NCBI GenBank assembly: GCA_016183815.1
Contig: JACPDW010000007.1
Location: 186,001 to 250,000, forward strand
Origin: Flavobacteriia bacterium
GTDB lineage: Bacteria; Bacteroidota; Bacteroidia; Flavobacteriales_D; Crocinitomicaceae
Direction of reading: 5' to 3'
DNA length: 64,000 bases
Shown here: piece by piece, positions 11,208 through 22,795 of the stretch
Layout of the letters: each line of letters opens with the position of its first letter
How positions within the stretch are numbered: the stretch's first letter is position 1
Notes under the pieces: model-generated
What the model was told of the DNA's origin: nothing
Seen by the model: only the letters and a program-made list of their open reading frames with translations
Database searches by the model: none
Program-made: the position numbers and the translations under genes

Positions 11208-12266
11208 CTACTCTCTTGTTCCTTTTTTTAATAAAAGGATAGAATGTTCCTTTGAATTATAATGATTATAAATTAGAACGTATTCTCTTATGTTCTGTGA
11301 AACCTTTTTAATACAAGACAAAGGAAGCTCTTTGTTTTTAAATAGTTTAATTCCCATCCATAAAGCAAAAGAAACTGAAGTAGGATATTCACCTGTTAAA
11401 TGTTTATAAGCATAAATATTCGAATTCTCAAAAAACAAGGAGAGGGAGTCGTAATTTTGTTGTGTCTCTTGATCACCATTATACCCCAAAATTAAATCTG
11501 AAATGGCATTTTTTTCTAAATTTTCTTTATTTAACATGGATTCAATTTCTTCTAATATTTCATCTGCACTAGAATTTTTTTGAATAGTAAAAAAAGAAAT
11601 TATTTCAGCTTCGTAATTTTGTGAGTGAGGACTAAGGTAAAACATAGCGGCACCTTCGCCACAAATACTACCTTTTGATTTTGTTTTTAATAAATCTAAT
11701 GAAGAAATAAAAGTATCTTTATATAATCCAGCCAACTGATTTATGTTATAATTATAAGAAGAAATTTCTTCAACGCAGCCAAGTAAACAAGAAGATGTTT
11801 TACCTTCATTCATTAGTAATTGGGCATCTAATAGAGCATCTAAAAAAGAGTTGGCTCCATTTACATGTGTTGTGTTGTAAGAAGAATTTTTGGTCAACAA
11901 AGCCAAACTACCGGCAATAGCATTTGGGGTAGATTGGACAAAATTTGTCGGGGTTAATGTACCTTCTTCATAAACATAAATTTGATTTAAAAACTTAATA
12001 CAATCTTCCAAACCGCCAACAGCCGATGAAAAGATGATTGCATTGGGTTGAAGATTGTTTTTAATACACATTTCCATTGCTCCACCAACACCTAATCGAA
12101 CAGCTCTTCCCATTCTTCTCAATAAATTTAAAGGTATTGCTTCATTGTATTTAGGTTCAATAACCTGTAATTGATTGTTCGTATAATTAATGGCTTGAGA
12201 ATCTAAAAAACAACTTTCATCATAAGTTTTTTGAGGAGAAATAGCGTATGAAAATTCGATGAACAT
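11208..12266 (-). CDS. Ketosynthase-like chain-length factor (no catalytic Cys)
   Basis: 352 residues from ATG 12266, which overlaps the stop of the upstream ketosynthase by one base (TAATG); an upstream in-frame start at 12293 would extend into that gene. The fold is thiolase-like (SSAVGGLEDC, QSTPNAIAGSLALL), but the nucleophile elbow reads THVNGANSFL, so the active-site Cys is absent and the HGTGT motif is not seen. That is what chain-length factors and KS-beta partners look like. It most likely forms a heterodimer with the KS encoded just upstream to set polyketide length in the aryl-polyene branch. Last gene of the ten-gene operon. Confidence 0.85.
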   Translation of the reverse strand: MFIEFSYAISPQKTYDESCFLDSQAINYTNNQLQVIEPKYNEAIPLNLLRRMGRAVRLGVGGAMEMCIKNNLQPNAIIFSSAVGGLEDCIKFLNQIYVYEEGTLTPTNFVQSTPNAIAGSLALLTKNSSYNTTHVNGANSFLDALLDAQLLMNEGKTSSCLLGCVEEISSYNYNINQLAGLYKDTFISSLDLLKTKSKGSICGEGAAMFYLSPHSQNYEAEIISFFTIQKNSSADEILEEIESMLNKENLEKNAISDLILGYNGDQETQQNYDSLSLFFENSNIYAYKHLTGEYPTSVSFALWMGIKLFKNKELPLSCIKKVSQNIREYVLIYNHYNSKEHSILLLKKGTRE

Positions 12267-13453
12267 TATCTTTGTAAAATTATAGAGGTACAATTTCCAT
12301 TAAAACCAAAAGCATTTGACATAGCATATTTGGCTTCAAAAGGTTGATTAATAAGGTTTGGTGGATAATTAATTTCTTCAATGGCTTGTTGAAAATTTAA
12401 GTTAGCATAAATTTCTTTGTTTTTTAAAGCCAATAAACAGGTAACAATTCCAAACGCTCCACTTGCGGCTAAAGTATGACCGACGTAGGTTTTACTGGAA
12501 TAAAAAGGAAGATGTCGCTTAAAAAGTGTTTTCATTGTTTTAGTTTCTACTAAGTCATTGTTTGGTGTTCCAGTTCCGTGAGCTTGAATAAAATCTATGT
12601 TTTCAAATGAAAGTTTTGCTTTTTCTAAAGCGGAAGTAATGGCTAAAGTTATTCCCTTTCCATCATCTGACAAAGCAGAGGGGTGAAAAGAATCGTTGGC
12701 ATTACCACCACTTATAATTTTCCCGTAATAATTTTTTGTGTTTTTGCTCTCTTTCTCTAAACAGAGATAAACCGCCGACTCACCTAAATTTAATCCGTCT
12801 CTATTTTGATCAAATGCCTTACAATATCCTTGTGATAAAATCGAAAGTGAAGAAAACCCATTGATTGTGAACTTGGAAAGCGAATCAACTCCTCCAACAA
12901 TTGCCCTATCAGCATACCCTTGTTCAATCATACGTTGAGCCAATAATATTGCATTTGAAGAAGAGGAACAGGCAGTATTAATTACAGCGGTTTTACCTTT
13001 GATTTCATACCTTTCTACAATTTTTTTTGCATGAGCACTAAACGCATAAGATTGTATAAAGACACTTGGATTGGTCTTATGAATGGCATCATGATAAAGT
13101 TCATCTATTTCGCTCATCCCTCCGACAGTACTCGAAGAGATGAAACATGTTTTATTTGATTGAATGCATTCATGACTCCAGCCAGCATCTTGAAAAGCTT
13201 GTTGAAAAGCAATTTCTGCTAAAATATCTGTTCTTGTATAATCTTCCGATAATGACAAAGAGTATTTTTTTATTAGTTCTTGATTTGAAAATGGAATTTC
13301 ACCAAATAAAAAATTTTCTTTGTATTTAGACTTTAAAATTTGAGCTCTTTTTATTCCACAAATTCCGTTTTTTAATGAAAAATGAATTTCTTCTATATTG
13401 TTACCAATTGCACTGATTATACCAATACCGCTAACAACAATAGAACCAGACAT
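12266..13453 (-). CDS. Beta-ketoacyl-ACP synthase (FabF-like)
   Basis: 395 residues, a normal KAS II length. The catalytic triad is visible: Cys162 in NTACSSSSNA, His292 in AHGTGTPNND, His326 in KTYVGHTLAASGA (with Lys321). It condenses malonyl-ACP with a growing acyl chain. It starts 2 nt after the ACP gene and is translationally coupled to the Cys-less partner downstream, so a KS/CLF pair extending a chain on the adjacent ACP is the natural reading. Confidence 0.93.
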   Translation of the reverse strand: MSGSIVVSGIGIISAIGNNIEEIHFSLKNGICGIKRAQILKSKYKENFLFGEIPFSNQELIKKYSLSLSEDYTRTDILAEIAFQQAFQDAGWSHECIQSNKTCFISSSTVGGMSEIDELYHDAIHKTNPSVFIQSYAFSAHAKKIVERYEIKGKTAVINTACSSSSNAILLAQRMIEQGYADRAIVGGVDSLSKFTINGFSSLSILSQGYCKAFDQNRDGLNLGESAVYLCLEKESKNTKNYYGKIISGGNANDSFHPSALSDDGKGITLAITSALEKAKLSFENIDFIQAHGTGTPNNDLVETKTMKTLFKRHLPFYSSKTYVGHTLAASGAFGIVTCLLALKNKEIYANLNFQQAIEEINYPPNLINQPFEAKYAMSNAFGFNGNCTSIILQR

Positions 13454-13455
13454 AA

Positions 13456-13722
13456 TTATTTAACCTTAGAATGTTCTAAAATATAATCTGCCATGTGATT
13501 GATGTCAATTAGCACTTTTCTTCCTTCTTGTGGATTTTCTATTTTAATACCATATTCTCTTTCTAAAAGAACAATCATTTCTAACGAATCAATAGAATCT
13601 AAGCCCAATTCAGAACCAAAAAAAGGTACATCGTCGGGAAATTTATCTACACTCATGTCCATTAAATTGAGATATTGAATAATTTGTTCTTTTAATTGAG
13701 TTTTTAATTCTTCTTTTGTCAT
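13456..13722 (-). CDS. Acyl carrier protein
   Basis: 88 residues with the phosphopantetheine site GLDSIDSLEMIV (Ser in DSI) flanked by acidic helices. It carries acyl intermediates as thioesters. It sits between the ABC permease and the ketosynthase with 1-2 nt spacing, so it is dedicated to this operon rather than being the housekeeping ACP. It could fill the DarC role of dialkylresorcinol pathways, serve the KS/CLF pair, or both. Confidence 0.95.
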   Translation of the reverse strand: MTKEELKTQLKEQIIQYLNLMDMSVDKFPDDVPFFGSELGLDSIDSLEMIVLLEREYGIKIENPQEGRKVLIDINHMADYILEHSKVK

Positions 13723-13723
13723 G

Positions 13724-15007
13724 TTATCTTTTTTTAATATATCCTAATCGAACCAATTTAAAGGTTATCAATAGAATAAAACTAATATTCATCAAAAGTA
13801 ATACTAATATTGGAAAAAACATTTCTTTCCATTCGGCATTTTTTAAAAAGATGACATAAAAATTTTCCATACACCAATATAAAGGAGAAAATTTTCCAAT
13901 AAATTTGAAATAATCAGGTAAAATATAAAAAGGAACCCAAATCCCTCCTAAAACAGCAAAAATTATGACAGATAATGCCCCAAAACCATTTGCTTGTTCG
14001 GTAGTTTTACTGAATGTACCTATTAAAAGAGAATAATTAACTGCGGAAAGTCCACAAAGAAAAACTGCAAAAAACAAAGTATCTAAACGTTGAGGAAAAT
14101 TTAAGACTGGTAAAGAAAGATAGGGAAACAAAAATTGTGAAACACTAAAAATCACTCCAATTTGTAACATAGAAATTAAACAAAACAAAATTATTTTTGA
14201 AGCTAAAACATAAGCAAAACTACTTGGCATAGTTAATAATCGGTCAAAAGAACCATTGTTTCTTTCTCTCACAAAATTACTTGCAACAGAGACTACCATA
14301 AAAAACATAGCAAAAATTGACCAAGCTGGTACATTGTGCTGGCTTACGTTGGGAATCTCATTATTGTGATTGTTTTGTCCAGAAATTTGTACGTCTAATT
14401 TTAGTTCATTCCATTTAATTTGTGATAACACATCGCTTTTTAATCCTAAAGCTGAATTTAATTCAGACATAAATTGTTTTGTCTGTGTTTTAATGATTAA
14501 AGTGTTGATTACTTGTGAAATGGACTCATAAAAATTTTTTTGAACAATAGGATTAAATAAAAGTTTGATATTATTTTGTTTTTCAGCTGATAATTCCTTT
14601 GAAATTAATGTACCATTTAATTCCGCCATCAAATTATCAATTTTTTGTTTATTAAATTGAGTTGTTTGATTACCAAACTCTTTAGGAATATACAAACCAA
14701 AAGGTACTTCACTTTGATTATGAACTTTAATTTTCAAATCTGAAAATGAATTTTGTTTTAATTTAATAATAGAAAACATACCGCTTTCTTTTACATCTTT
14801 TATCAATTGTTTACTTAAAACAGATTGATCTAAATCAACTACGTAAAGAGATATGTTGTTCTCATTTACAATTTTAACTGCACTATTTTGTACAACGGTT
14901 ATAATAATTACAAGTAAAATAGGTAAAAAAAACATCATTGATAAACCCATTTTATCATTTAATAATAATAAAACCTCTTTGTAAATTGAAATGCCTAATT
15001 TTTTCAT
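13724..15007 (-). CDS. ABC-2 type transporter permease
   Basis: 427 residues. There is one N-terminal membrane helix (MMFFLPILLVIIITVV), a ~190-residue extracytoplasmic domain, then about five C-terminal helices (for example WSIFAMFFMVVSVASNFV and LSAVNYSLLIGTF), the YhhJ/DrrB-like ABC-2 layout. A conserved cytoplasmic loop RERNNGSFDRLLTMP precedes the second helix bundle. With the ATPase two bases upstream it would move the pathway product, or a lipid-linked intermediate, out of the cytoplasmic membrane. Confidence 0.92.
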   Translation of the reverse strand: MKKLGISIYKEVLLLLNDKMGLSMMFFLPILLVIIITVVQNSAVKIVNENNISLYVVDLDQSVLSKQLIKDVKESGMFSIIKLKQNSFSDLKIKVHNQSEVPFGLYIPKEFGNQTTQFNKQKIDNLMAELNGTLISKELSAEKQNNIKLLFNPIVQKNFYESISQVINTLIIKTQTKQFMSELNSALGLKSDVLSQIKWNELKLDVQISGQNNHNNEIPNVSQHNVPAWSIFAMFFMVVSVASNFVRERNNGSFDRLLTMPSSFAYVLASKIILFCLISMLQIGVIFSVSQFLFPYLSLPVLNFPQRLDTLFFAVFLCGLSAVNYSLLIGTFSKTTEQANGFGALSVIIFAVLGGIWVPFYILPDYFKFIGKFSPLYWCMENFYVIFLKNAEWKEMFFPILVLLLMNISFILLITFKLVRLGYIKKR

Positions 15008-15009
15008 TA

Positions 15010-15735
15010 TTAAATAGTCAAAAGAAGAGATTCAAGATCGTTCATTTGATTGTCTTTTAAAACTTGTTGAGTTGTTCCAGTACAAATTAAAGAACCATTA
15101 TTAAATAGTGAAACATGGGAACAAAATTCTTGTGCCTCTTCCATTTGATGTGAAGTGTATAAAATGGTTTTCCCTTCTTTGTTTAAGTTAATTAAATGTT
15201 GAAGGATTTCTGTTTTACTTTTAATGTCAATGCCTACCGTAGGTTCGTCTAAAATAATCACTTCTGGATTATGTAACAAACCCAAAGCCAAATTGACTTT
15301 TCTTTTCATTCCACCTGAAAAATGTTTAATCTTTTTATCGGCATGTTGTTCAAGTCTTAAAAAAGGTAAAAGTTCTTCGTATCGATTTAAAATAGATTTT
15401 TTATCTAAATTATACATTGTTCCAAAAAACAAAAAGTTGTTCCAAATAGTTAAATCCTCATAAAAAGCAAAATCTTGTGGAACATAACCAATGATAGATT
15501 TAACGTTTTTTTTTGGCAGGACTTCATTTTTTTTATTTAAAAATAAAACTTCTCCAATACTAGGTTCAATAACATCACAAATGGTTTTAATTAAAGTAGT
15601 TTTTCCTGCACCATTAGATCCTAAAATTCCATGTGTTGTTCCAGCTTTAATACAAAAATGAACTCGTTTTAAGCTAAAAGGACTTTTTTTACTGTATTTT
15701 TTAGAAAGTTGATTTATTTGAATTTCTTTTAACAT
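15010..15735 (-). CDS. ABC transporter ATP-binding protein
   Basis: 241 residues. Walker A GSNGAGKTT, Q-loop YVPQDF, signature FSGGMKRKV, Walker B VIILDEP and H-loop YTSHQMEEA are all present, so it is a competent ATPase of the drug/polyketide export type. It is coupled to the permease downstream (2 nt gap). The pair belongs to the dialkylresorcinol operon and probably exports the pigment or its precursor. Confidence 0.95.
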   Translation of the reverse strand: MLKEIQINQLSKKYSKKSPFSLKRVHFCIKAGTTHGILGSNGAGKTTLIKTICDVIEPSIGEVLFLNKKNEVLPKKNVKSIIGYVPQDFAFYEDLTIWNNFLFFGTMYNLDKKSILNRYEELLPFLRLEQHADKKIKHFSGGMKRKVNLALGLLHNPEVIILDEPTVGIDIKSKTEILQHLINLNKEGKTILYTSHQMEEAQEFCSHVSLFNNGSLICTGTTQQVLKDNQMNDLESLLLTI

Positions 15736-15750
15736 CGAGTGTTCAAATAG

Positions 15751-16758
15751 TTACTTAACAAGATTTCTTAATTTTAAGAATGCTTCTTTTTCAATTTCTT
15801 TTATTTGAAACATTCTTTCAGCTACCTCATCAAAATCTTTTTGTTCCGTATTTTTTCCTTTCATAATCGAAGCCATGGCAACTGCACAATTCCTCCAACT
15901 ATCACCAGATTTTGTGAAGTCTTCAGATACTAAAGAAATTTTGTCGTTTTGCAAATAAGAATGACTCTGTTCTAAAAAAGCAGCATATATATACCTAAAA
16001 CCACCACCACCAGTACCAATTTCTTCTTGCATACGAATAATTTGACCTAAATATAATCCCGCTCTGCGTGGACCCAATTTGTTTCTCCAGGATTTTATTT
16101 TATTTGCAGTATATCCAATTCCTCTCACACCTGTTAATCGACTTGGAATATACAACATATCTCTTGCATTTCTTTTTATACCTTTTAAAATAGCATTTGA
16201 TATTTGTTCATTAGTGGGATTTTTCTCGATAATTGGATAATATAATCTTCCTTTTGGTGCTAATGCTCCTTTAGCAAAACGCACTCTTGATAAATCTTCT
16301 TCTGAAATTAAAGTTGTTTCTTCCATTACAGGGTCGCTGACTTGATATTGATTACCTTGTTTTCCAAAAACAATTAAATTGTGTGCGTTAAAATGAAACC
16401 TATATTGTAAAGGAAAATAGGGAAGGTGATAAACACCTACTTGACAACCGACCCAGCTATTTTTTGCAAGTTCTGTATCTAAAGCCAATTGTGCTTTCTG
16501 GGGAGATGAAAAAGTTTTTTGATAAACGCCTATACCTAAATTTTTGCAATTTCTTTTAAAAACGGTACCAGGAACAGAACGAAAAGAAATAGCAGGACCA
16601 TTGTTTATTTTAATAAAAGGAAGGTGGATATAAAACAATCCAGAACCTATTCCAAAAGCAAGCGGTTCAGTAATCTCCTCAAAACCATTATTATAAAAAA
16701 GACTGCTGGTTACTCCATTCTCACAATGAGCACTTTGAATGTGTTTAAATTCTTTCAA
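15751..16758 (-). CDS. BtrH-like acyltransferase/cysteine-protease-fold protein
   Basis: 335 residues with an N-terminal BtrH domain and a DUF4872-like C-terminal part. A papain-like triad can be proposed: Cys12 (AHCENGVTSS), His126 (NAHNLIVFG) and Asp142 (QVSDPVM). In butirosin synthesis BtrH moves an acyl group from a carrier protein to the acceptor. By analogy this protein may transfer the polyene acyl chain from the operon's ACP to another molecule, such as the resorcinol hydroxyl. That is an inference from family and context. Its start overlaps the upstream gene by 4 nt. Confidence 0.82.
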   Translation of the reverse strand: MKEFKHIQSAHCENGVTSSLFYNNGFEEITEPLAFGIGSGLFYIHLPFIKINNGPAISFRSVPGTVFKRNCKNLGIGVYQKTFSSPQKAQLALDTELAKNSWVGCQVGVYHLPYFPLQYRFHFNAHNLIVFGKQGNQYQVSDPVMEETTLISEEDLSRVRFAKGALAPKGRLYYPIIEKNPTNEQISNAILKGIKRNARDMLYIPSRLTGVRGIGYTANKIKSWRNKLGPRRAGLYLGQIIRMQEEIGTGGGGFRYIYAAFLEQSHSYLQNDKISLVSEDFTKSGDSWRNCAVAMASIMKGKNTEQKDFDEVAERMFQIKEIEKEAFLKLRNLVK

Positions 16759-17171
16759 TTCTTTTCTTTTTTTGTGTTTTGGAATTCGATTAATTCTTCA
16801 ATAGGTATTTTAAATGCAAAAGCGTATTTTTCTAGACGAATTTTTGATAATTTTTTGTAAACCTTTGGATTAAAATGTTTTTTTATAGTAATTTTCCAAA
16901 ATCCTGTATAACCCGACAAAATAGATAAAGTCATTAAATTTTTAACCATTAAATAATAAATAGGACTTTTAATTCCATTTTCCAATAATTCTTTTGCTTT
17001 GTTAATATCTTCTTCAATATCACTCCAAGCTTCATTCAAGGCTTCAGTTTTTATATCCCAGCCAGAGCTTAAAGTACTCTGGTATTCATTGTTGTCATTT
17101 TTGGCGTATAAAATTTCTTTAGTGAAATTTTCAAGTGGGGTTTTGTCTTGAGGAACTTCTTTAAGTTTCAT
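16755..17171 (-). CDS. Small conserved protein of the dialkylresorcinol operon
   Basis: 138 residues, mostly helical and charged, with no signal peptide and no motif I recognise. One moderately hydrophobic stretch (YYLMVKNLMTLSILSGYTGF) and a basic helix (KKHFNPKVYKKLSKIRLEKY) are visible. It lies 1 nt after darB and overlaps the BtrH-like gene by 4 nt, so it must be made together with them. Function unknown; an accessory or scaffold role in the pathway is a guess. Confidence 0.75.
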   Translation of the reverse strand: MKLKEVPQDKTPLENFTKEILYAKNDNNEYQSTLSSGWDIKTEALNEAWSDIEEDINKAKELLENGIKSPIYYLMVKNLMTLSILSGYTGFWKITIKKHFNPKVYKKLSKIRLEKYAFAFKIPIEELIEFQNTKKEKN

Positions 17172-17172
17172 A

Positions 17173-18312
17173 TCAACAAACTGTTAACATGGTAAAAGTA
17201 TAGGAAAAACGAGCACTTTCTGGAACCATTAATAATACTTTCTCACCTTTTTTTAATCGACCTTTTTCAAGTAGTTCTTCTATCATTAGAAAAACAGAAG
17301 CAGAGCCAATATTTCCTTTACTTTTTAGATTAGAAAACCATCTATTTAAAGGAATTTCTATATTGTTTTCTACCAACGATTCATATATTTTATCTTGAAA
17401 ATAATAACTTGAAAGATGGGGTAAAAACCAATTTACATCTTCCACCTTAAAATTCTTTTTCTCTAACAAATCTAACAAAAAGAAAGCACCGTATTTTACA
17501 ATACTCTCCCCTAGCAATTTCGTATCTTGTTTAATAGAAAAAAGTGAATTGGGCATATATTCGGAAGGTTCATAATTTTTATAGCTAACGAATTTACCAT
17601 TTACTTTATCCCCACCCATATACATACAAACCTCTTCTTGGTCAGCATAAGATCTATACTCAATCCACTCAATTTTTAAACTTAAACCCTCTTTGTTTGG
17701 AGTTTTTTCCAATAAAAAAGCACCTGCACCGTCAGAGAGCATCCATCTTATAAAATCTTTTTCAAAGCCAATAATGGGTTCTTTTTGTAATTTTTCCAAT
17801 TTAACGGCTTCTTCTTCATAAGATTCAGCTCTTAAATTTCTAGATAAATACTCAGAACCAGTTACAATAGCTTTGTTTTTATCACCACTTCTCAGGGATA
17901 AAAAGGCATATTTTAAGGCCTGTAAACTAGTACAACAATTACCTGATGGACTTACCACATCTAAAGAACCTAATTCTGGTAATAAACCATGAACCATTAC
18001 ACCATGTGAAGGCATTAATTGATCAGGAGAAGCGGTTCCACAACACAATAAATCGACATTTTCTAATGCTTTTTTGTCTTGAAGTAAAATATTTTTAACT
18101 GCATTAGCGGTCATTTCTGCGTTTGAATGCGTTGCTTTGCCCTTTTTATCAATAGCATAATATCTTTCTTCTATTTTATTGTTTCTTAAAATTAAGCTTT
18201 TTGTTTTTGAATTTTGTTCTTTAACTAAACCGAGATATTCTTCGATTTCATCGTTATTCACTGCTTTGTTTGGTAAAAAACTGCTTGCTTTGGTAATGTA
18301 AATATCAAACAT
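17173..18312 (-). CDS. darB: Beta-ketoacyl synthase III, DarB-like
   Basis: 379 residues, FabH-like but longer. The nucleophile region is SPSGNCCTSLQAL (Cys126/Cys127), with a His in WFLPHLSSYY and an Asn-Gly loop KGNIGSAS completing the KAS III triad. In dialkylresorcinol and flexirubin pathways DarB joins two beta-oxoacyl thioesters head-to-head and cyclises them. The neighbour DarA (next gene upstream in the operon) supports this assignment over a housekeeping FabH. Confidence 0.85.
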   Translation of the reverse strand: MFDIYITKASSFLPNKAVNNDEIEEYLGLVKEQNSKTKSLILRNNKIEERYYAIDKKGKATHSNAEMTANAVKNILLQDKKALENVDLLCCGTASPDQLMPSHGVMVHGLLPELGSLDVVSPSGNCCTSLQALKYAFLSLRSGDKNKAIVTGSEYLSRNLRAESYEEEAVKLEKLQKEPIIGFEKDFIRWMLSDGAGAFLLEKTPNKEGLSLKIEWIEYRSYADQEEVCMYMGGDKVNGKFVSYKNYEPSEYMPNSLFSIKQDTKLLGESIVKYGAFFLLDLLEKKNFKVEDVNWFLPHLSSYYFQDKIYESLVENNIEIPLNRWFSNLKSKGNIGSASVFLMIEELLEKGRLKKGEKVLLMVPESARFSYTFTMLTVC

Positions 18313-18325
18313 GAATTAATAAAAA

Positions 18326-19225
18326 TTAAAAATGCAAAATTACATTTTTTTTTTGACTTTCAGATTTCAACATAAAAGGTCTGAAAACTAAAGCATAAAT
18401 ACTAATTACTATGGGTGAAATTGTAAATAATGCAACATACAAATAAATTCGATAAAGAAACAAGAAAAAATTTCTTTTAAAAGGGTTTTTTCCTTTATTT
18501 AAAATTAAAGAAGCCCATAATCTAAACATTTTTTTGCCTCTTTTTTCAATAAAAAGCACATCCCATGGTATATTAATTTTGTTTTCGTCTAATATGGCTT
18601 TTTGTAGAGAATTTTCTTGTTTGCTAAGTAATTTTTCACAAATTATTTCACCGTACTTTGTAGAAAAAAGGATGTCTTCTTCGCTAATTCCAGGTTTTGG
18701 AAAGATTCCCCACATTTTATCTTTTTTCCCAGTAAACACCCAATATTGAATGGTTATTGCACTAATGTAGTTTGCATTTCTATCAACTAAAGGAATGTTT
18801 CCGATAATCTTGCATCCATTTTCTTCGATTAATTTTTTGGAGTCTAAAAATGCATTTACCCACATATTTCTTGCTCCAATAACCGTAATAAATTTAGCAC
18901 CACGTGTTCTTTTTTTAAATTCGTCATCTTGTAAAAGGGAAGAACAAGGTCTGCTTAAAGATAAAAACCAAGACTGAAAACCAAAAATTACTAAGTCATA
19001 TTTTTCTTCTTGATAATGAATTGGTGAAAGAGGCATTTTTTTCATCAATACTGTTTCTGGCATTGTATCAAAAAAATTCTTTTTTCCCCAAGGAAAAGTG
19101 TAAGCGTCATTATCAGTAAACCGAACTTCGTCAATAGTAAAGCATTTTTTTATGGGACTTAAAATTTGTTCCATAATTTGAGTTAACTGTCCAGTTTGTG
19201 AATAATGGATAGATAATATTTTCAT
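18326..19225 (-). CDS. darA: Flavodoxin-like DarA aromatase of dialkylresorcinol synthesis
   Basis: 299 residues. The N-terminal ~200 residues are a flavodoxin-like fold starting KILSIHYSQTGQLTQIM, with the SQTGQ phosphate loop typical for FMN. The C-terminus has a hydrophobic segment (YLYVALFTISPIVISIYALVF) that would tether it to the membrane. It matches the Bacteroidota 'dialkylresorcinol condensing enzyme' family, thought to aromatise the cyclohexanedione made by DarB. It overlaps the methyltransferase stop by 4 nt and precedes darB by 13 nt. Confidence 0.83.
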   Translation of the reverse strand: MKILSIHYSQTGQLTQIMEQILSPIKKCFTIDEVRFTDNDAYTFPWGKKNFFDTMPETVLMKKMPLSPIHYQEEKYDLVIFGFQSWFLSLSRPCSSLLQDDEFKKRTRGAKFITVIGARNMWVNAFLDSKKLIEENGCKIIGNIPLVDRNANYISAITIQYWVFTGKKDKMWGIFPKPGISEEDILFSTKYGEIICEKLLSKQENSLQKAILDENKINIPWDVLFIEKRGKKMFRLWASLILNKGKNPFKRNFFLFLYRIYLYVALFTISPIVISIYALVFRPFMLKSESQKKNVILHF

Positions 19226-20280
19226 TTTTTCATTTTTATATGCAGAATTGTATGATAACCTCCTCCAATCAAAGGATATTGTTCAACTAATTCAAAACCC
19301 GCTTTATCTATGATATATAAAAAGGAAGAAAGTGAATACATTTTACTATTTCCATTTGCCATAACAGTAAAATACAAAGAAGTAGCGACTAATGAAAATG
19401 TAGCTGCTGGAAATGTTTGATTGTCGATAAAAGTTTCCATGATATAAACATCTGCATCGGGCTTCATAGTTTTTTTAATTTTTTTCAAAATCATTTCTAT
19501 TTCATGTTCACCAAAACAATCTAAAAACTGACTCATCCAATAAGCATCAGCACCAGCTGGTATTTCAGATTCAGGATTTAACATATCAATGGCAAAAAAA
19601 GAGACTCGTTCCGCAATTTTCCCTTTGCTATGTATATTTTCTTGAGCAATAGCAATTTGACCAGGCAAATCAAGCAATTTAACTTGAATATCTGTGTTGT
19701 AATTGGTTGCTGCAATTGCCCATTTTCCAGTATTACCACCAATATCATACATTAACTTAGGTTGGTATTTAAAAATGATTTTTAATGCATCGTCAAAGGA
19801 ATGATCTGAATAATAATGGTCAAAATCAAACCATGATTTTTTTTGTTTGTCTGTCAATTTTGAAAGTCCGATATATATCGTTTGCCAATCACCTAACATT
19901 TTAAGACCTGCTGGTTTTCCTGTTGTTATTGCTTCTTTTAGATGGTATAATCCTTCATAACAAATGTCGTTTGTAAAATGAAGATTCACTCTTGTCATTT
20001 TATCCATCAACAAAAACAATCCCGTTTTAGACAATGTAAGCTGTTTATTTTCATTCTCTTCAAGAATTTCAGCAGAAACAGCCATTTCTACCAAAACTTT
20101 AACTCCATATTCGGAAAGATTAAGTTTTTTAGCAATGTCCACAATTGTTACAGGATTAATTCTTTTGTTTTCATTGATAAATTCTAAAATTCCCAATTCA
20201 ATAAGACAAACTGCTGTTTGAAAAACAAAAGGACTAAATGCTATTTTTTGTGCTTCATTTTTTGCTTCAAGTGCATTCAT
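19222..20280 (-). CDS. SAM-dependent O-methyltransferase, first gene of the operon
   Basis: 352 residues from ATG 20280 (MNALEAKNEAQ); an upstream in-frame start at 20331 would add a hydrophobic stretch foreign to the family and lie on the promoter. It has an N-terminal winged-helix dimerisation domain (SEYGVKVLVEMAVSA) and a C-terminal Rossmann domain with SAM motif I YDIGGNTGKWA and a later acidic motif. The family methylates small phenolic or polyketide hydroxyls. The substrate may be the aryl ring or the resorcinol. Its stop overlaps the darA start by 4 nt. Confidence 0.85.
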   Translation of the reverse strand: MNALEAKNEAQKIAFSPFVFQTAVCLIELGILEFINENKRINPVTIVDIAKKLNLSEYGVKVLVEMAVSAEILEENENKQLTLSKTGLFLLMDKMTRVNLHFTNDICYEGLYHLKEAITTGKPAGLKMLGDWQTIYIGLSKLTDKQKKSWFDFDHYYSDHSFDDALKIIFKYQPKLMYDIGGNTGKWAIAATNYNTDIQVKLLDLPGQIAIAQENIHSKGKIAERVSFFAIDMLNPESEIPAGADAYWMSQFLDCFGEHEIEMILKKIKKTMKPDADVYIMETFIDNQTFPAATFSLVATSLYFTVMANGNSKMYSLSSFLYIIDKAGFELVEQYPLIGGGYHTILHIKMKK

Positions 20281-20298
20281 GATGTAGATATAAAAACA

Positions 20299-20331
20299 CA
20301 AAATTACTTTTTTTAAAGTTAAATAACACAA
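20299..20331 (-). promoter_or_regulatory. Probable promoter of the dialkylresorcinol operon
   Basis: Read on the minus strand: TTG (20329-20331), 22 nt, then TAATTTTG (20299-20306), a good -7 box with a slightly long spacer. The first ATG is 18 nt downstream of the box. Everything from 20280 to 11208 could be one transcript, since no gap exceeds 15 nt. Confidence 0.45.
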
Positions 20332-20469
20332 GTTTTTGTCAAATCAAATGAGTTAAAAATAAAGATCTTTGTATTTTTGCATAAATTCAGTTAAAAAGAT
20401 TTCAATACTGTTTAATAAATGTAGTATTCCTTGATTAAAAAAAAGAACAATACTATTAGCTAGTAAAAA

Positions 20470-21639
20470 ATGGAAAAATTAAAAGTACTTTTTCTAATTC
20501 CCACTTACAACAATCAAAAAACACTTAAAAAAGTTTTAGAGGAGGTGCTGTTTTATGCTAAAGGAAGTGAAGTGGTGGTTGTTAATGATGGTTCAACAGA
20601 CCAAAGCAAAGAAATATTATTTTCTTTTGGTACAACAATAACTTTATTAGAAAATGAGAAAAATTCAGGAAAGGGTGTTGCTTTAAGAAATGGAATTACC
20701 TATGCAATAAAAAGAGGAGCAGACTATGTGATAAGTATTGATTCAGATGGTCAACATTTTCCATCAGATATTCCATTGTTTTTGGAAGAAATTGTAAAAA
20801 ACATGGGTTCAATGATTATGGGATCAAGAAACATGAAACAAGAAGGTGTTCCTGGAAAAAGCTCTTTTGGAAATCGTTTTTCCAATTTTTGGTTTTATAT
20901 AGAAACAGGAATAAGTTTGCCCGATACTCAAACAGGATTTAGGGCCTATCCAGTTCAGGCAATGAAAAAAATGAGATTTTTTACAAAAAAATTTGAGTTT
21001 GAAATTGAAATCATCGTTCGCCTAGCTTGGAAAAAAGTGCCTTTTAAAGCCATTCCTATAAAGGTATTATACGATGAAAAAGAAAGAGTTTCTCATTTCA
21101 GACCTTTTAAAGATTTTTTTCGTATAAGTGTTTTAAATAGCATATTAGTATTTTTGGCTCTTCTTTGGTATTATCCACTTAAACTTTTTTCAAGAAATAC
21201 TTTTAAAACTATAAAAAGTGAGTTTTATAAAAAGGAAGAAAGTAATTTAAAAAAAGCTCTTTCAATTTCATTTGGAGTTTTTATGGGTATATTTCCAATT
21301 TGGGGTTTTCAATTGTTGATAGGCATTCCTTTGGCTGTTTTTTTTAGGTTAAACAAAGTGCTTTTCATAGCGGCCGCAAACATTTCTATTCCTCCAATGA
21401 TACCTTTAATTTTGTTTGTAAGTTATTTTTTTGGAAGTTGGTTTGTTTCTAATCCTTTAGATCTAATGGAAATGAAATTCAATTCACTTGAAAGTATTCA
21501 TTTACACTTCGTTCAATACTTCATAGGAGCCGTTTTGTTCTCACTCTTTTCTTTTTTTATTGTTTTTTCAATTTCTTACTTTCTTTTAAGATTGTTTAGA
21601 AAAAAAAGTGATGTAAGAAGAGGAAATTTTTATTCTTAA
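20470..21639 (+). CDS. Family 2 glycosyltransferase fused to DUF2062 membrane domain
   Basis: 389 residues. Residues 1-230 are a GT-A glycosyltransferase (FLIPTYNNQ, VVNDGST, IDSDGQH with the DxD-type metal site, TQTGFRAYP). Residues ~265-380 are a DUF2062 membrane domain (SFGVFMGIFPIWGFQLL and two or three further helices). The same fusion is found beside flexirubin-type clusters in Flavobacteriales, and here it is divergent from the dar operon across 189 nt. It may glycosylate a lipid carrier or the pigment; the substrate is not evident. A -7-like box (TATTTTTG) sits at 20372. Confidence 0.88.
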   Translation: MEKLKVLFLIPTYNNQKTLKKVLEEVLFYAKGSEVVVVNDGSTDQSKEILFSFGTTITLLENEKNSGKGVALRNGITYAIKRGADYVISIDSDGQHFPSDIPLFLEEIVKNMGSMIMGSRNMKQEGVPGKSSFGNRFSNFWFYIETGISLPDTQTGFRAYPVQAMKKMRFFTKKFEFEIEIIVRLAWKKVPFKAIPIKVLYDEKERVSHFRPFKDFFRISVLNSILVFLALLWYYPLKLFSRNTFKTIKSEFYKKEESNLKKALSISFGVFMGIFPIWGFQLLIGIPLAVFFRLNKVLFIAAANISIPPMIPLILFVSYFFGSWFVSNPLDLMEMKFNSLESIHLHFVQYFIGAVLFSLFSFFIVFSISYFLLRLFRKKSDVRRGNFYS

Positions 21640-21818: not shown

Positions 21819-22376
21819 ATGGAGCTCGGAAACATATACAACCTTTATAAAACCATGGAAAAAGAGAATATATTACTCTCTTTTAAAGGCGTGGTAACTT
21901 CAGATTTGCTGACTTCAGTTTTGCAAATTATGGAAACTAAGATGGATTATTTGGAAGAATCTCCAAAAACCAAGAAAAAAGTTTTTAATGTATTGGTAGA
22001 ATGTTTACAAAATTTATATCATCATATTGATGTAAACGATGATATTGGAGTACAAAGAGAAATCATCGAAGCAAAATCCGCTCTTTTTCTTATTGCAAAA
22101 GAAGACACTTATTTTCATATAAGAACAGGAAATTATGTTGAAAAGCAAAACGCACTTGATTTGGCCGAAAAATTAGAAAAAATCAATGGCATGGATAAAG
22201 ACGAGCTAAAAGCATATTATCAAGAAGTATTAAATAATGGTAGTATGTCAGAAAAAGGCACCGCTGGTTTAGGAATGATAGATATTGCTAGAAAATCCGG
22301 AAATAAATTAGAATATCGATTTTTAGATGTTTCTCCTACAACTAGTTTTTTCTGTTTAAATGTAAAAATTGATTAA
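21819..22376 (+). CDS. siaB: SiaB-family protein kinase
   Basis: 185 residues, a single GHKL-type ATPase fold with N-box (NVLVECLQNLYHHI) and glycine loop (GTAGLGMIDIARKSG). In Pseudomonas the SiaB kinase phosphorylates SiaC on a threonine and thereby controls the diguanylate cyclase SiaD. The next gene is the matching SiaC homologue (35 nt apart), which makes the assignment strong. No SiaA-like phosphatase or SiaD-like cyclase is present in the window. A TATATTTG box is at 21793-21800. Confidence 0.88.
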   Translation: MELGNIYNLYKTMEKENILLSFKGVVTSDLLTSVLQIMETKMDYLEESPKTKKKVFNVLVECLQNLYHHIDVNDDIGVQREIIEAKSALFLIAKEDTYFHIRTGNYVEKQNALDLAEKLEKINGMDKDELKAYYQEVLNNGSMSEKGTAGLGMIDIARKSGNKLEYRFLDVSPTTSFFCLNVKID

Positions 22377-22411
22377 TTTTGTAAAAAGAATTGAAAAAAA
22401 TATAAAATAAC

Positions 22412-22795
22412 ATGGAAAATTTAATTTTAGAGGGCTCTGCAAAAACTCCATCGGTAAAATTTGATGCCGGTGCAGGAAAATTAGAATTAAAAGGTAGATC
22501 AATTCCTGAAAATTCCGTGGAGTTTTATAAACCATTAAACGATTGGATTGATCAGTATGGGTCGTCTCCAAAAACTCAAACCTCTGTTGATATAAAATTG
22601 GAATATTTTAATACTTCCTCTTCAAAGTGTATTTTAGATTTATTTAAAAAACTGGAGAGCATTAATGGAAAAGGAACTCAAGTGAGCATTAATTGGTTTT
22701 TTGAGGAAGATGATGAAGATATGCAAGAAGCAGGTCAGGATTATCAAGCCATCATCTCACTTCCTTTTGAAATTATTGAAGTAGAAGAAATTTAA
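22412..22795 (+). CDS. siaC: SiaC-family regulatory phosphoprotein (DUF1987)
   Basis: 127 residues. It contains the conserved segment LEYFNTSSSKCILDLF, with Thr68 at the same position number as the threonine phosphorylated in Pseudomonas SiaC. It acts as a phosphorylation-controlled partner protein in the cytoplasm. It follows siaB by 35 nt and precedes coaE by 7 nt, so all three are probably co-transcribed. Confidence 0.9.
   Translation: MENLILEGSAKTPSVKFDAGAGKLELKGRSIPENSVEFYKPLNDWIDQYGSSPKTQTSVDIKLEYFNTSSSKCILDLFKKLESINGKGTQVSINWFFEEDDEDMQEAGQDYQAIISLPFEIIEVEEI

Follow-up and report, generated by a model that had tools for sequence, protein, structure and literature searches.

A dar operon in a Flavobacteriia genome is probably the dialkylresorcinol module of a flexirubin pathway dispersed over seven loci

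Results

We analysed a 64,000-nucleotide stretch (the window; C13:186001-250000) of a 3.24-Mb draft genome. With a probability of roughly 0.93, its ten-gene operon is one part, the dialkylresorcinol (dar) module, of a flexirubin pathway, and the polyene genes of that pathway are spread over six further loci in the same genome. Flexirubin is a yellow-orange bacterial pigment. The pathway is ordinary but unusually scattered, and is of mild interest for the extent of its dispersal and for the strict association of DarB, DarH and FlxA.

Organization of the dar operon

Ten ORFs, all open and without internal stops, run on the minus strand from 20280 to 11208 of the window (Table 1). In the 5′ to 3′ direction, the methyltransferase and DarA genes overlap by 4 nt, gaps of 13 and 1 nt follow before the DarB and DarG genes, and the DarG and DarH genes overlap by 4 nt. 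The spacing continues with gaps of 15 nt (DarH to ATPase), 2 nt (ATPase to permease), 1 nt (permease to ACP) and 2 nt (ACP to KS), and the KS and KS-like genes overlap by 1 nt, provided that the KS-like protein starts at the ATG at 12266. Re-listing of the ORFs reproduced the coordinates, gene order and tight spacing given in a preliminary description of this DNA. Its gene names also hold, most through HMM matches and DarA through synteny with darB and the homologues in relatives.

Table 1 Probable flexirubin genes at positions 11208 to 21639 of the window and at other loci of the genome (contig and kb).
Feature	Position	Strand	Remarks
FlxJ-family methyltransferase	19222..20280	-	First gene of the operon; best family NF053543, 447 bits (under cut-off 560)
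DarA, aromatase acting on the DarB product (cyclohexanedione)	18326..19225	-	Synteny; role as named in PMC3949708
DarB ketosynthase/cyclase	17173..18312	-	NF053539, 559.5 bits (cut-off 550)
DarG-family dialkylresorcinol biosynthesis protein	16755..17171	-	NF053536, 152 (above 70); NF053545, 157 (below 170)
DarH, BtrH_N + DUF4872, proposed acyltransferase	15751..16758	-	NF053550, 452.5 (above 300)
ABC ATPase	15010..15735	-	PF00005; position conserved among relatives
ABC-2 permease	13724..15007	-	PF12698; position conserved among relatives
dar-cassette acyl carrier protein (ACP)	13456..13722	-	PF00550
dar-cassette FabF-type ketosynthase (KS)	12266..13453	-	PF00109/PF02801; active site intact
Cys-less KS-like partner, chain-length-factor type	11208..12266	-	PF13723
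GT2-DUF2062 protein	20470..21639	+	Divergent to the operon; in the flexirubin gene set by synteny in relatives
FlxA, FlxB reductase, KS, ACP, LPLAT-type acyltransferase	C16:225.1-229.7k		Grouped together; FlxA (tyrosine ammonia-lyase, TAL) NF053541, 780 bits (cut-off 700); FlxB 380 bits (cut-off 340)
FabZ-like dehydratase, hotdog thioesterase, KS, 198-aa KS-like, ACP, KS	C16:127.7-131.6k		One operon
KS-like protein, polysaccharide deacetylase, LolA, second FabZ-like dehydratase	C25:83.3-86.0k
FlxY (4-coumarate ligase)	C43:202.3-203.6k		NF053551, 561 bits (cut-off 520)
1272-aa MMPL exporter, FAD oxidoreductase	about C16:344.6-350k		MMPL (346-350k) 40 % identity over 1272 aa; oxidoreductase 43 % over 421 aa
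FAD-dependent halogenase-like protein	C29:240.5-241.7k		48 % identity

Proteins encoded by the operon

Apart from the FlxJ-family methyltransferase, the genome has no FlxJ homologue of note; the probable substrate of this enzyme is the aryl ring of the polyene. The protein is 60-63 % identical to the methyltransferase adjoining flxA in several relatives; where the cluster is contiguous, this gene adjoins flxA. For DarA, the HMM search gave no Pfam or NCBIfam match; its homologues (28-49 % identity) directly adjoin darB in all 20 relatives of the order examined. DarB has a crystallised relative in the StlD ketosynthase (PDB 5gk0, E 2e-98), and the DarB residues C126, H299 and N328/N334 are invariant in 21 sequences. 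C12, H126 and D142 of DarH are likewise invariant (18 sequences). Searches of the PDB with DarA and with DarH returned nothing useful.

The dar KS has an intact Cys162/His292/His326 set that is invariant in the alignment with relatives. Its KS-like partner has no Cys at the KS active-site position when the translation is read by eye, no Cys is invariant among 13 sequences (the window and 12 relatives), and it matches PDB 6qsp chain B weakly. The KS, ACP and KS-like proteins are 41 %, 51 % and 29 % identical, respectively, to their polyene-block counterparts, and this mirrored composition suggests that the two cassettes arose by an old duplication. The dar cassette may feed DarB rather than build a third chain, as the preliminary description had it.

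Flanking genes

Both flanks had been placed outside the operon, and this stands for the zinc-ribbon neighbour only. The zinc-ribbon gene was found in 9/9 genomes searched, two of which are of the same genus and have neither DarB nor FlxA; it is outside the pathway. In one genome of the same genus without DarB and FlxA (G100), the left flank is syntenic and the dar operon is absent from the site. By contrast, the GT2-DUF2062 protein belongs to the flexirubin gene set: its gene lies between darA and the dehydratase/LolA block in seven relatives with contiguous clusters, and it occurred in 7/7 sampled flexirubin genomes (the window included) and in 0/12 genomes without FlxA and DarB. Between this gene and that for dephospho-CoA kinase, at 21819-22795 on the plus strand of the window, are two small genes that resemble SiaB/SiaC-type signalling genes on reading of their sequence.

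Polyene genes elsewhere in the genome

We searched the genome with the gene families one by one. The absence of polyene-modifying genes noted earlier is true of the window locus and not of the genome, in which six further loci carry nearly all of them (Table 1). The polyene fatty-acid-synthase set is present in all its parts (reductase, dehydratases, KS, KS-like, ACP and thioesterase), and the counterpart of one flavin oxidoreductase in the canonical cluster is weak (24.6 %). Of the two explanations offered in the preliminary description, a pathway split over several loci is thus the one borne out, since FlxA, FlxB and FlxY exceed their cut-offs and the other genes lie in conserved blocks.

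Clustering in one or two places is no biochemical requirement for the flexirubin pathway. In this genome, the genes occupy seven loci (dar included) on five contigs rather than one or two clusters. Six of the seven (all but that on C29) sit tens of kb inside contigs 138-403 kb long, and contig breaks therefore do not account for their separation; on this ground, assembly fragmentation was rejected as the source of the scatter.

Several other candidates were rejected. The second PF00221 match (C43:226k) is HutH, a separate lyase and not a second TAL, and the AMP ligase found at C28:25k resembles MenE and is not FlxY. As flexirubin exporter, the 1272-aa protein at C16:346-350k is a better match than the HAE3-type MMPL at C33 or the MMPL at C16:146k. 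No flx genes adjoin the LolA gene at C20:12k, which probably encodes a general LolA.

Gene order in relatives

Comparison of gene order, as had been proposed, located the operon within a larger arrangement. The dar and polyene blocks form a single contiguous, collinear cluster in six genomes of this family (G139, G127, G157, G192, G073 and G198), and its dar genes follow the order seen in the window. The cluster reads KS-like, KS, ACP, permease, ATPase, DarH, DarG, DarB and DarA, then the divergent GT2-DUF2062 gene, then dehydratase, LolA, deacetylase, KS-like, KS, ACP, KS-like, KS, thioesterase and dehydratase, and then LPLAT, ACP, KS, FlxB, FlxA and FlxJ. Its end, seen in full in G139, consists of FAD oxidoreductase, MMPL, FAD oxidoreductase and FAD/halogenase-like genes followed by FlxY. 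A Flavobacteriales MAG (L032) from a DarB-based scan for related loci confirmed the contiguous order. The window operon corresponds to the left end of this cluster, with FlxJ beside DarA. The breaks in the source genome fall between the blocks of the relatives, and the blocks are internally intact.

On one contig of G179, about 395 kb separate dar from flxA, and G088 has the two on different long contigs; splitting of dar from flx therefore recurs. In the genus of G088 and G019, dispersal reaches inside the dar operon: darB-darA stand alone (L062 and L065, respectively) and DarH is on another contig. In some relatives (L061, L063, L068-L070 and L075), DarG and DarB are separated by an additional pair of dehydratase-like genes. 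A Tannerellaceae MAG locus of 21 kb (L035) holds two adjoining DarB-type ketosynthases, 44 and 48 % identical to the window DarB, and no other gene of the dar or flx panel.

Co-occurrence of DarB, DarH and FlxA

DarB proper was found in 30 of 299 genomes of the order (28 over the cut-off, one 1 bit below it and one cut by a contig end; two genomes with only a longer DarB-like protein of about 620 aa were left out). DarH exceeded its cut-off in the identical set of 30, and FlxA was present in 34, namely these 30 and four more. The co-occurrence is highly significant when relatedness among the 299 genomes is ignored (Fisher p < 1e-36). In addition, DarB or DarA distances correlate with those of FlxA, FlxB and KS (Mantel rho 0.72-0.82, 14-15 genomes). 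Missing flexirubin genes elsewhere and a matching phylogeny, which according to the preliminary description would make this an ordinary split cluster, were both found.

The longer DarB-like protein, with an open frame of about 620 aa and scores of 368-392 bits, occurs in G003, G155, G133 and G181, alone or beside a normal DarB, and perhaps belongs to another resorcinol or aryl-polyene lineage. Bacteroides ihuae, used as a control genome, matches the FlxA and FlxJ-type models, matches the DarB model below its cut-off and lacks DarH.

Discussion

Proposed pathway

DarB would join two fatty-acid-type thioesters into a cyclohexanedione, which DarA would aromatise to a 2,5-dialkylresorcinol, as established for the homologues of Chitinophaga pinensis. 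The dar KS/KS-like/ACP cassette is likely to provide DarB with an acyl chain or to lengthen one for it. For the other half, FlxA is expected to deaminate tyrosine and FlxY to activate coumarate, activities shown biochemically for the C. pinensis proteins (PMC3992019). FlxB, two FabZ-like dehydratases and the KS/ACP sets would then build the aryl polyene, with FlxJ as the putative ring methylase. The ABC pair, MMPL, LolA, deacetylase and GT2-DUF2062 proteins may move the pigment or place it in the envelope.

BtrH transfers an acyl group from an ACP to an acceptor. By analogy, DarH may form the ester by moving the ACP-bound polyenoyl chain onto a hydroxyl of the resorcinol. This role is plausible because, besides that analogy, Cys12, His126 and Asp142 are invariant and DarH exceeds its cut-off in the order only where both halves of the pathway occur. 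The strict co-occurrence fits such an ester-forming acyltransferase, and the case gains strength from DarB and DarH being found in exactly the same genomes, each of which also has FlxA. We found no published experiment on the ester-forming step of DarH in the open literature searched.

Comparison with known systems

Split dar/polyene architecture has already been published (PMC3992019, PMC3949708): in C. pinensis, flxA-Y (Cpin_1853-1877) and darB/darA (Cpin_6850/6851) are apart, as dar and flx are here, and dar lies within or beside the polyene cluster in only 9 of 16 DAR-containing genomes (PMC3949708). C. pinensis shares with this genome the TAL FlxA, ligase FlxY, FlxB, several KS, two dehydratases, deacetylase, LolA, GT and exporter (PMC3992019). 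However, its flx genes form one cluster, whereas here they occupy six loci and FlxJ sits in the dar operon. The 37-kb flexirubin cluster of Flavobacterium johnsoniae represents the same pathway, contiguous there, as described in PMC3992019, and dispersed here.

The dar operon of Azoarcus sp. BH72 (arcuflavin; PMC3949708) has the same order as the window operon, darA-B-D-E-F-I-C-J-K: darA, darB, small protein, BtrH-like, ABC ATPase, permease, ACP, KS and a last gene in the KS-like position (Table 1 of PMC3949708). In both, polyene genes are unlinked to dar. Unlike the window operon, that of BH72 contains two inserted toxin-antitoxin-like genes and is not headed by a methyltransferase, and a chorismatase (3-HBA) replaces FlxA as the starter enzyme (PMC3949708).

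Alternative readings

A decaying pathway, scattered, incompletely co-regulated and no longer yielding pigment, appears quite unlikely. The spread over seven loci, the weak oxidoreductase counterpart and the joint lack of DarB and FlxA in two genomes of the genus, at least one of them without the dar operon at this site, could be read in this way. However, the open frames, the conserved active sites of DarB, DarH and KS, and breaks that spare the interior of the blocks speak against decay. It is similarly improbable that the dar module, besides its part in flexirubin synthesis, makes and exports a second resorcinol ester with a non-aryl-polyene acyl chain through its own KS/KS-like/ACP, DarH and ABC pair.

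The least probable reading is the second one of the preliminary description, a "coherent minimal unit" that exports a free dialkylresorcinol or short non-aryl ester through the ABC pair: the operon does have its own KS, ACP and transporter, and darA and darB alone can yield a free resorcinol heterologously in work that PMC3992019 cites, but all 30 genomes of the order with true DarB also have FlxA and DarH, a gene of an aryl-polyene methyltransferase family (FlxJ) lies in the operon itself, and nearly all remaining genes of the canonical cluster are elsewhere in the genome.

As the dar module of a flexirubin pathway, the operon illustrates that a conserved contiguous pigment cluster can be broken up into seven unlinked blocks and lose almost none of its genes. 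Genome mining that relies on clusters would mistake such an operon for a novel minimal pathway.
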